Of a stretch of DNA of 42,847 nt, positions 39,790-42,847 are shown piece after piece. Numbering within the stretch: position 1 is the first letter of the stretch; each line of letters starts with the position of its first letter. Both the position numbers and the translations under genes were made by a program. Below the pieces are notes generated by a model. That model had not been told where the DNA came from, did no database searches, and saw only the letters and a program-made list of their open reading frames with translations. The DNA lies in NCBI GenBank assembly GCA_005843825.1, contig SZXX01000017.1, forward strand, positions 1 to 42,847, given 5' to 3'. This DNA is from Chlorobium sp. GTDB taxonomy: Bacteria; Bacteroidota; Chlorobiia; Chlorobiales; Chlorobiaceae.

Positions 39790-39936
39790 CTTAACCTTCA
39801 ATGATTTTCTATTTCCAAATATGCAACTCAACCTCAGACCTCCAGAAACTGAGGCCGCAGATCAGTACAGGGAAGATCAGTCTTTATCCTGAGTTTTACA
39901 AGGGAACAGCTATTCCACCTGAAGGAAACTCCCCAT

Positions 39937-39964
39937 GTCATCCCGAAACGCAGTGAGGGATCTA
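39937..39964. repeat. Dispersed gtcatcccga/gagggatct element
   Basis: Almost identical to the copy at 41531-41558 (both have gtcatcccgaaacgcagtga and gggatct), so the two copies flank the Abi_2 gene and its upstream RNA. Confidence 0.9.
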
Positions 39965-40022
39965 TTAAGCGCTTCACAGAAAATGATTCCGTAATAAAAC
40001 ATACCAGAAACAAAACACTTAG

Positions 40023-40183: not shown

Positions 40184-41098
40184 CTATGACTTCCAGAGCG
40201 GCTCTTTATCCCATATTTTCGAAAATCCTAACGCATCAAGATCAACACTCGGATATTTACAAAACAGGGTTTTCAGTTTCAGTGTAAACCTGTGTCCGGG
40301 GCTTATTGCATCCAAAAGATATTTCATACAGCAAACATGCACGTACAAAGCGTGATGCTGAGAAACTGGTGGCACCAAAGTAAGCCATGGTGCGGGAGGT
40401 CTCGGCAGCAACTTTGGGCGACCAGGAAGATTTTTGTTCCATAACCGTCCATGATGGGCACAAATATTTCGGATTTGCGACAGCGACTGAAGCCAGGTCC
40501 TTAAGAAGGTATGATTTACGGTATTAATCTCTTTCGCAATCGTATCCTTTGATTCGAAATGTGAACCAAGATTTCCATAGAGTTTAGATAAGAGGCCAAA
40601 ACTTACAACCTCAAGCGTTTTCCATGCTGGTGGTCGACGGCTATCAGCATGATACTTCTGATAATGCTGACGAATAAATACCTCTTTCGAATTTTTAAGA
40701 TCACGGTCAATTGCCTTCAAATTGACAGCAAATGCAAGTTTATTCTTGAAAATCGAAGGATTTTCAAACCACCAAGGATCAACTTCGTGAGCAAGATGAT
40801 TAATCATACGTGTTCGAAGACCAATCTCAATCCGTTTAATAGCATTGAATAGCAAAAGTCTCAATTCACTGTCAAAACTATAGAGAGCAACAACATTCTC
40901 GAAACGGCTGTTCGTTTTAAAGAGATGATTGACTTTATCGGCCTGCATTGGCCACCAATAACCAGCAAGCCGATAATAACTAATGTTGTTGAGATAATGT
41001 TCAGCGAGAGACTCATCTCCCATGAGCAGGCCTCTGGACTTCAGTAACTGTATCTGATCCTTAACCGGAATGGTCGGCTTGTGGTAATGCATAAGCAT
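40184..41098 (-). CDS. Abi_2 (AbiD/AbiF-like) HEPN protein, probable toxin
   Basis: A 304-residue protein of the Abi_2 family of abortive-infection proteins. The N-terminal signature HKP...QIQLLKSRGL...YLNNISYYRLAGYWWP (about residues 5-50) is characteristic. The HEPN RNase motif is RNICAHHGRLW: Arg210-x4-His215; a second Arg-rich pattern RTRMINH is at 95-101. Family members cut RNA and AbiF is linked to an RNA antitoxin. The ATG at 41098 is preferred; a second ATG is at 41092. A TTG start at 41122 would lie inside the terminator stem and is rejected. There is no Shine-Dalgarno site, only a T-run. It lies beside a CRISPR array. Confidence 0.85.
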   Translation of the reverse strand: MLMHYHKPTIPVKDQIQLLKSRGLLMGDESLAEHYLNNISYYRLAGYWWPMQADKVNHLFKTNSRFENVVALYSFDSELRLLLFNAIKRIEIGLRTRMINHLAHEVDPWWFENPSIFKNKLAFAVNLKAIDRDLKNSKEVFIRQHYQKYHADSRRPPAWKTLEVVSFGLLSKLYGNLGSHFESKDTIAKEINTVNHTFLRTWLQSLSQIRNICAHHGRLWNKNLPGRPKLLPRPPAPWLTLVPPVSQHHALYVHVCCMKYLLDAISPGHRFTLKLKTLFCKYPSVDLDALGFSKIWDKEPLWKS

Positions 41099-41138
41099 AA
41101 AAAAAAAGGCCTCACGGATCAATGAACCCGTAAGGCCT
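41099..41138 (-). terminator. Intrinsic terminator abutting the Abi_2 start codon
   Basis: On the minus strand AGGCCTTACGG pairs with CCGTGAGGCCT (11 bp, one G-T) around a 10-base loop, followed by nine T. The T-run ends exactly one base before the ATG at 41098. The same strand is being transcribed, so the mRNA of the Abi gene must read through it or start inside it. Confidence 0.9.
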
Positions 41139-41194
41139 AAGCAAAAGACTTACCCTGGTACGCTGTTCTTACGGGAAGCGTGATAAGTACTATT
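41099..41194 (-). ncRNA. Candidate structured small RNA, probable AbiF-type RNA antitoxin
   Basis: A ~95-nt RNA predicted from structure. From the 5' end: stem I is ACTTATC (41188-41182) with GGTAAGT (41154-41148), extended by ACGCT (41181-41177) with AGCGT (41164-41160); a 5-nt bulge is on the 3' side. The 12-nt loop of stem I holds CCCGTAAG (41175-41168), complementary over 8 nt to CTTACGGG (41134-41127) in the 5' arm of the terminator stem. That allows either a pseudoknot or a switch between structures. A 9-nt linker lies between the stems. It precedes the Abi_2 gene in the same direction, the layout reported for AbiF. Not in any track; found by reading pairing. Confidence 0.65.
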
Positions 41195-41200
41195 GTCTCA

Positions 41201-41229: not shown

Positions 41230-41530
41230 AATCTTTTCACTGATAAACTCGCTAACACCAAGAAGAATCACCCCGGCCAATATCCTTGTGCGCTTTTATT
41301 ATACTCGTAAATTGATCTATAAAAATACATAATTTATACGTAACAGCCGGGCTATTTCAGAAATATCATCACAGGGTAGTCTTTCCGAAACCCATGAAGA
41401 AGCACATACACGGAAAAGGTGAGCGTCTCCGAGGTATTCACCAAATTTTGATCTTCTGAACCATCAATATTCTACAAGCCCCGAGAAAATCCTCGTAATC
41501 TTTTAGCGTCAACCCAATACAATTCCTCTG

Positions 41531-41558
41531 GTCATCCCGAAACGCAGTGAGGGATCTA
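41531..41558. repeat. Dispersed gtcatcccga/gagggatct element
   Basis: Nearly the same as the copy at 39937-39964, on the other side of the Abi_2/RNA unit, in the same orientation. Confidence 0.9.
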
Positions 41559-41583
41559 TTCCCCCCGCCAACATCATCTTTTT

Positions 41584-41710: not shown

Positions 41711-42847
41711 GTTTCAATCCACGCGCCCGCGGGGGGCGCGACTGCCGAGGTTGTTGATGAGAAAACGGGTGAGGTGTTTCAATCCACGCGCCCGCGGGGG
41801 GCGCGACCATCGGCATCAATGAGCTTGACCGGTGTTGTCCGGTTTCAATCCACGCGCCCGCGGGGGGCGCGACAGAGTATCGAGTTGACGCTCAGAATCC
41901 GAGAACAGTTTCAATCCACGCGCCCGCGGGGGGCGCGACGAGCGATGTAGAGCAGGAGCCTATACCGTTTGTAGTTTCAATCCACGCGCCCGCGGGGGGC
42001 GCGACCTCGCGTTGATGAGCCGTAGATGACATACGCTCCTGTTTCAATCCACGCGCCCGCGGGGGGCGCGACGTAAAAACTCAAGGAGATTAGCGGGATC
42101 GTTGTCGTTTCAATCCACGCGCCCGCGGGGGGCGCGACTATTTGAAACAACAGGAGCAGATAACCCCAAAGGTGTTTCAATCCACGCGCCCGCGGGGGGC
42201 GCGACCTCCCGTTGATGAGCCGTGGAAGACATACGCTCCTGTTTCAATCCACGCGCCCGCGGGGGGCGCGACCATCAATGAGGCTTTCCGGCAGGCTCAG
42301 CAGCTGGTTTCAATCCACGCGCCCGCGGGGGGCGCGACACGTTATACGCCGAGTCTGGGTGTTCCTGATGTTAGTTTCAATCCACGCGCCCGCGGGGGGC
42401 GCGACTTAGAGGAAGGCGAATAATGAGAGAACAGTTATTTGTTTCAATCCACGCGCCCGCGGGGGGCGCGACAGTATTCAAAGAGTGCCTTTAAGCCGTC
42501 ATAAGTGTTTCAATCCACGCGCCCGCGGGGGGCGCGACCTCTCTGTTGTGATTTTATAGAGTATAAAAACTTGTTTCAATCCACGCGCCCGCGGGGGGCG
42601 CGACATAAAACAATGGTTTACGGCAAGATTAAAAGATTAGTTTCAATCCACGCGCCCGCGGGGGGCGCGACACCCCTAGCGTCACGTTCATAGAGACGTT
42701 GTATCTGTTTCAATCCACGCGCCCGCGGGGGGCGCGACGCGACAGATGCATTCTTCAAAATTGACCTTCAAGGTTTCAATCCACGCGCCCGCGGGGGGCG
42801 CGACTTTCCGCCTCAGGGCGGTTTTCATTGTGATGGAGTTTCAATCC
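41711..42847 (-). CRISPR. Type I-C-like CRISPR array, 17 full repeats, open at the right edge
   Basis: Seventeen identical 32-base repeats (first 41711-41742, last full one 42773-42804) and a truncated 18th at 42838, with 17 spacers of 33-35 bases. The repeat starts GTTTCAATCCACGCGCCC and ends GGGGGGCGCGAC, with a CGCGCCC/GGGCGCG hairpin; this is the type I-C family. In that family the transcribed strand ends ATTGAAAC, so transcription should run leftward and the leader and cas genes should lie beyond the right edge. No repeat is mutated, including the leftmost (expected oldest) one. No cas gene is in the window. Spacers 5 and 8 are near-duplicates. Confidence 0.98.

Follow-up and report, generated by a model that had tools for sequence, protein, structure and literature searches.

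We conclude with considerable confidence that the Chlorobium sp. contig analysed here (SZXX01000017.1; 42,847 nt, hereafter the window) carries an AbiF-type RNA-antitoxin/HEPN-ribonuclease module, whose toxicity, RNA binding and release would resemble those of its studied relatives. A sequence-only reading of the window had proposed that positions 40184-41194 form a complete RNA-antitoxin/HEPN-toxin module, and since a conserved, covarying ncRNA is linked there to an AbiF-like HEPN gene, this proposal is very probably correct. Two hallmarks of an Abi_2 module are present, namely a PF07751 HEPN protein with an R-x4-H motif and a conserved same-strand ncRNA directly upstream of its gene (Table 1).

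An AbiF-like gene preceded by a structured RNA

The product of the downstream gene is AbiF-like. Its Abi_2 domain matches PF07751 with an E-value of 1e-53, and PADLOC labels the protein AbiD (2.6e-74), AbiD and AbiF being one group (PMC12373285). PbAbiF (PDB 8vz6) was the sole sequence match in the PDB (full length, E 5e-59) and also the best structural match, with an AlphaFold2 model of the window protein (pLDDT 93) aligning to it in Foldseek at TM 0.90. Residues R210 and H215, the R-x4-H pair of the HEPN domain, are invariant across 28 homologues, and the same pair is required for PbAbiF activity (PMC12373285). The start codon probably lies at 41098 or 41092, with the second ATG (41092) fitting the homologue alignment better.

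Table 1 Features of the RNA-HEPN locus in the window
Feature	Position	Strand	Evidence
-10 box TATAAT, RNA promoter	41206-41201	minus	sequence; retained in close relatives
Predicted ncRNA transcript, AATAGTAC to terminator U tract	41099..41194	minus	fold z -4.5; start position
Conserved abiF-like RNA element	41141..41197	minus	R1 match 78.9 bits; covariation
P1 stem, ACTTATC / GGTAAGT	41188-41182 / 41154-41148	minus	
P2 stem, ACGCT / AGCGT	41181-41177 / 41164-41160	minus	
Apical loop, 12 nt	41176-41165	minus	
3' bulge ACCAG	41159-41155	minus	
Loop octamer CCCGTAAG	41175-41168	minus	
Downstream arm octamer CTTACGGG	41134-41127	minus	
Intrinsic terminator hairpin	41138-41107	minus	terminator scan; retained in Chlorobium relatives
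abiF-like (Abi_2, HEPN) toxin gene, 304 aa	40184..41098	minus	PF07751, PADLOC, PDB 8vz6, Foldseek

The sequence elements named in the earlier reading (TATAAT, both stems, the octamers and the terminator) were all found where it had placed them. The 96-nt window RNA has a predicted folding energy of -32.9 kcal/mol, compared with -19.6 +/- 3.0 for shuffled sequences (z -4.5; 0 of 200 shuffles), and its terminator was picked up independently by a terminator scan. TATAAT was not called by a simple promoter scan of the window, as it lacks a good -35 element at the right spacing; the promoter call therefore relies on the -10 box and on the retention of this box in relatives. The predicted 5' end of the RNA (41194) lies 7 nt past TATAAT, in agreement with the fixed start AAYAG of the relatives. 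At the other end, the terminator U tract directly adjoins the first toxin ATG; a free Shine-Dalgarno sequence is missing at the toxin start, which counts against the module reading, and the only SD-like sequence is a GAGG inside the 3' arm of the terminator.

The RNA is conserved and covaries across phyla

The close relatives of the window contig are Chlorobium and Chlorobiaceae MAGs, and relatives at 50-96% protein identity carry the same upstream element, AAYAGTAC-P1-ACGCT-loop-AGCGT-bulge-P1'. Across 19 aligned sequences, 228 of 228 pair cells form standard pairs and two-sided changes occur in 5 of the 7 P1 pairs; no shuffle equals the observed pairing percentage or covariation score, and pairing falls to 24-44% when the register is slid. 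Two-sided changes extend to 9 pairs across 52 sequences, in an alignment that was fitted to the structure and is hence biased towards it.

A covariance model built from the 19 sequences (R1) placed the element immediately upstream and in sense in held-out relatives from Chlorobiota, Bacteroidota and, weakly, Alphaproteobacteria, where homologues at 33-38% identity gave marginal scores at the right position. Among 86 Chlorobiaceae genomes, all 22 full-length Abi_2 genes had a same-strand R1 match (17 of these genes were not in R1 training), 112-153 nt upstream of the Abi_2 domain. The earlier reading had staked its proposal on covariation and conservation of both stems and of the 8-nt loop complementarity upstream of other Abi_2 genes, and both stems are indeed conserved there; its claim of a structured RNA upstream of an AbiF-like gene is borne out by the fold, the covariation and this linkage. 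In one locus (L021:2864-2997), two tandem RNA copies precede a single abi gene, with their stem differences compensated, as in the RNA RCd22.

In Bacteroidota a TAnnTTTG box, the usual -7 element in this phylum, takes the place of TATAAT; in 23 of 26 loci (background 2.9%) its spacing to the AACAG that follows is constant, and it therefore provides an independent mark of the transcript 5' end.

Solitary chromosomal copies and alternative roles of the RNA

RNA matches without a Pfam-detectable Abi_2 neighbour made up 22 of 51 in Chlorobiaceae. Some of these solitary copies precede toxin fragments or contig ends, and roughly 14 have an intact hairpin with no recognisable toxin directly behind. 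Toxin-less chromosomal copies with intact stems were seen in L149, L150, L151, L153, L157, L159, L161, L162, L164, L166, L167 and L168, and in L155 and L160 a complete module follows the first copy at a distance of about 0.6 kb. Such a chromosomal pattern would be the expected remnant of toxin loss preceding antitoxin loss, and solitary copies in chromosomes and phages alike fit a trans-acting antitoxin.

Such covarying copies, which persist in chromosomes and phages without any Abi gene, argue against the reading in which the RNA serves the Abi gene only as a cis-acting leader (attenuator), governing read-through but not binding the toxin in trans. This reading is favoured by the same-strand position and by the terminator adjoining the ATG, and a precedent is discussed in PMC12373285, in which L. 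lactis AbiD1 is under the control of a structured 5'UTR. Copies in Bacteroidota, however, retain the hairpin and loop, often with no terminator behind them, and RCd22 of C. difficile binds and neutralises AbiF both in cis and in trans (PMC12373285), so we consider a purely cis-acting leader improbable.

The earlier reading had also proposed that the apical loop pairs with the downstream arm as a pseudoknot or switch. The two octamers are exactly complementary over 8 nt in the window, and when the downstream stretch is shuffled with its dinucleotides preserved, a Watson-Crick match of at least 8 turns up in 0.6% of cases. This pairing is nevertheless eroded in a comparison of ten Chlorobiaceae sequences: it is complete (8/8) in the window and in L053, the relative closest to it, and reduced to 7/8 in four sequences, 6/8 in two, and 5/8 and 2/8 in two more. 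Depending on the sequence, the mismatches fall in the loop or in the arm, compensation was never seen among the ten, and the terminator hairpin is preserved in most cases despite changes in the arm. Moreover, the loop CCCGTAAG is retained in paralogues at 38% identity, and is conserved in Bacteroidota, with no CTTACGGG downstream in either. Because the loop is kept where its partner is missing, its conservation must have another reason, most simply and probably contact with the toxin.

A conserved loop-arm switch or pseudoknot was rejected after this comparison. As long as the nascent window RNA does not yet include the 3' terminator arm, a fold with the loop-arm pairing is predicted to be favoured (-17.9 kcal/mol), and in the window alone the pairing could form transiently; the terminator by itself (-20.9) nonetheless outweighs the 8-bp loop-arm duplex (-11.4). 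A functional switch is thus unlikely, and we give very little credence to the specific reading in which CCCGUAAG with CUUACGGG acts as a functional pseudoknot or an anti-terminator switch that raises toxin expression.

The surroundings of the module contain a 40-nt direct repeat (39927-39966 and 41521-41560, 90% identical) on either side of it, possibly an interspersed repeat and a route for insertion or loss of the module. That the hairpin itself serves in processing or is a repeat element, without antitoxin function and tied to Abi_2 by shared mobility as these flanking repeats might suggest, has next to no probability, given that the RNA keeps its position in distant phyla, where its promoters are lineage-specific, whereas the search for the 40-nt repeats covered the window, and that 8vz6 holds PbAbiF together with its ncRNA.

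A CRISPR array (41711-42847; repeat GTTTCAATCCACGCGCCCGCGGGGGGCGCGAC, at least 17 copies) begins about 0.5 kb from the RNA promoter and runs to the contig end. We saw by eye no similarity between the array and the RNA, and found no counterpart of the array in the fetched stretches of relatives, so its proximity to the RNA looks accidental, and a CRISPR link of the RNA was set aside.

Proposed mechanism of the module

Returning to the RNA-antitoxin/HEPN-ribonuclease module, we propose that a short RNA would be made from the upstream promoter and that its P1-A-P2 hairpin, together with the 12-nt loop and the 3' bulge, would bind a dimer of the AbiF-like protein, blocking the R-x4-H active site. 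Because transcription would mostly stop at the terminator, the RNA would be in excess over the toxin, with occasional read-through giving a toxin mRNA whose ribosome site lies within the terminator stem. When phage infection halts transcription, the RNA would be depleted and the toxin freed, and RNA would then be cut and growth stopped.

Solitary copies in viral contigs and cultured phages

Scanning IMG/VR with a DNA pattern of P2 and loop only returned 95 contigs, and a paralogue-type pattern 7 contigs. A search of 87 viral loci with R1 yielded 81 matches, and in 45 non-identical viral RNAs 96.7% of the cells are paired, with a covariation score of 0.438 vs. 0.137 for shuffles; P1 was outside the main viral search pattern. 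Whole-record searches of 38 IMG/VR records found Abi_2 in 2 and missing from 36, and a terminase exceeded the Pfam cut-off in five records of 149-180 kb. Neighbouring viral genes include a phage RNA ligase/tail-fibre catalyst, a thymidylate synthase, a UvsX/DnaB-like protein and a homing endonuclease. A same-strand tRNA lies at most 200 nt away from 22 of 53 unique viral copies (4.5 expected); many copies start at the last bases of a tRNA, and the TAnnTTTG box is missing in most tRNA-adjacent ones.

A canonical-type pattern matched 24 IMG/VR contigs, only one of them with a nearby Abi_2, and whole records of this type contained Abi_2 in 1 of 18 cases and lacked it in 17. Abi_2 was present in all five alphaproteobacterial-type viral contigs, which shows that the searches do pick up paired modules where these exist. 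Solitary abiF-type RNAs in Abi_2-less IMG/VR phages include those of L190, L207, L235, L188, L261, L214, L185, L192 and L241, among others. Because most of the viral contigs are incomplete, Abi_2 can be called absent with certainty only in the complete genomes of cultured phages.

For these, INPHARED blastn with the Chlorobium/Bacteroidota-type RNA returned nothing usable, and with the canonical type returned 69 cultured-phage records resembling abiF RNA, 53 of them from Mycobacterium phages. The curated cut-off of the Rfam model RF03085 (37 bits) was exceeded in 8 of 8 complete genomes (S-SZBM1, S-CREM1, Acj61, vB_AhaP_PT2, T7-Ah, Thibault, CGphi29 and CRP-143), and whole-genome searches of these eight (L316-L323) found no Abi_2 anywhere. 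Mycobacterium phage Thibault (L319) carries a canonical abiF RNA at 54.9 bits, alongside 52 further records of Mycobacterium phages of the Thibault type. The RNA sits between tRNA genes in S-SZBM1 and S-CREM1, among head genes in the T7-like phages, and in the two Aeromonas phages of this kind (L318:1471-1504, L322:1471-1504) in the scaffold gene leader behind GACTATAGGGATAAC, which we take to resemble a T7-class promoter; the phage RNA polymerase could transcribe the Aeromonas-phage RNA after host shut-off.

The authors of the S-CREM1 genome annotated the abiF RNA in it (PMC9964418), and among the papers that we searched we found no statement that phages turn such RNAs against AbiF. A precedent exists in phage PhiTE, whose pseudo-ToxI RNA suppresses ToxN (PMC5449768). 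We lean slightly towards the view that many lytic phages carry a toxin-less AbiF antitoxin RNA as a decoy, often within a tRNA array or a late transcript, and that these anti-AbiF RNAs form a widespread class, in which case RNA-only phages would supply an AbiF inhibitor from their own transcripts during infection. If this is true, the solitary phage RNAs of 40-60 nt, among them those of cultured Mycobacterium, Acinetobacter, Aeromonas, Roseobacter and Synechococcus phages, would act in nature as inhibitors of AbiF-type defence. The Mycobacterium phage copies offer a convenient M. smegmatis system.

Comparison with known RNAs and toxin systems

An Rfam search of the window returned no RF03085 match up to E 10 and nothing significant, so the window RNA is not an RF03085 member by the Rfam criterion, a point against the module reading. 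When aligned to the RF03085 consensus (P1 6 bp, unpaired A, P2 3 bp, loop 11 nt, 3' bulge 6 nt), the window RNA displays the same succession of P1, unpaired A, P2, loop, 3' bulge and P1'. The two share a P1 of 6-7 bp, one unpaired or weakly paired A, a short P2, a loop of 11-12 nt, a 3' bulge of 5-6 nt, an AACA-type 5' flank and a downstream Abi_2 gene, but differ in the loop (UCCCGUAAGAAC in the window, CUCUCAACGAU in RF03085) and in P2 (4-5 bp vs. 3 bp). RF03085 scores above its cut-off in the relatives L029 (2942-2978) and L047 (2921-2957), and falls short of it, though at the expected position, in two alphaproteobacterial relatives (30.1 bits). Alphaproteobacterial members have an extra hairpin within the loop (L032:2906-2957). 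The RNA in the window is thus abiF-like and belongs to a Chlorobiota/Bacteroidota subfamily overlooked by Rfam, for which R1 provides a covariance model.

Among characterized systems, PbAbiF and its ncRNA (8vz6, Prevotellaceae) resemble the window module in full-length protein homology, fold and the R210/H215 pair, and 8vz6 presents an ncRNA-bound dimer; the proteins are about 35% identical, and the comparison with 8vz6 covers the protein. AbiF-Cd/RCd22 of the Clostridioides difficile phage phi027 shares with the window the order of promoter, ncRNA, terminator and read-through into abiF, as well as the Abi_2 R-x4-H motif (PMC12373285), but RCd22 has two abiF motifs and the window RNA one.

Type III toxin-antitoxin systems (ToxIN, AbiQ) likewise place an antitoxin RNA upstream of a ribonuclease toxin with a terminator in between, but combine a ToxN fold with a repeat array forming pseudoknots, whereas the window combines a HEPN toxin with a single hairpin. 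Membership in type III was rejected because its antitoxins are tandem repeats and the window has one motif (L021 has two). PbAbiF is cited as the origin of Cas13 in PMC12373285 (see also PMC12737573). The window protein shows one Abi_2 domain, Cas13 was not among its PDB structural matches, and membership in the Cas13 lineage, defined by two HEPN domains and a CRISPR-derived guide, was rejected. The module thus belongs to the known AbiF RNA-toxin kind, with an RNA subfamily beyond Rfam's model, and extends these systems, proposed as Cas13 ancestors, to green sulfur bacteria.
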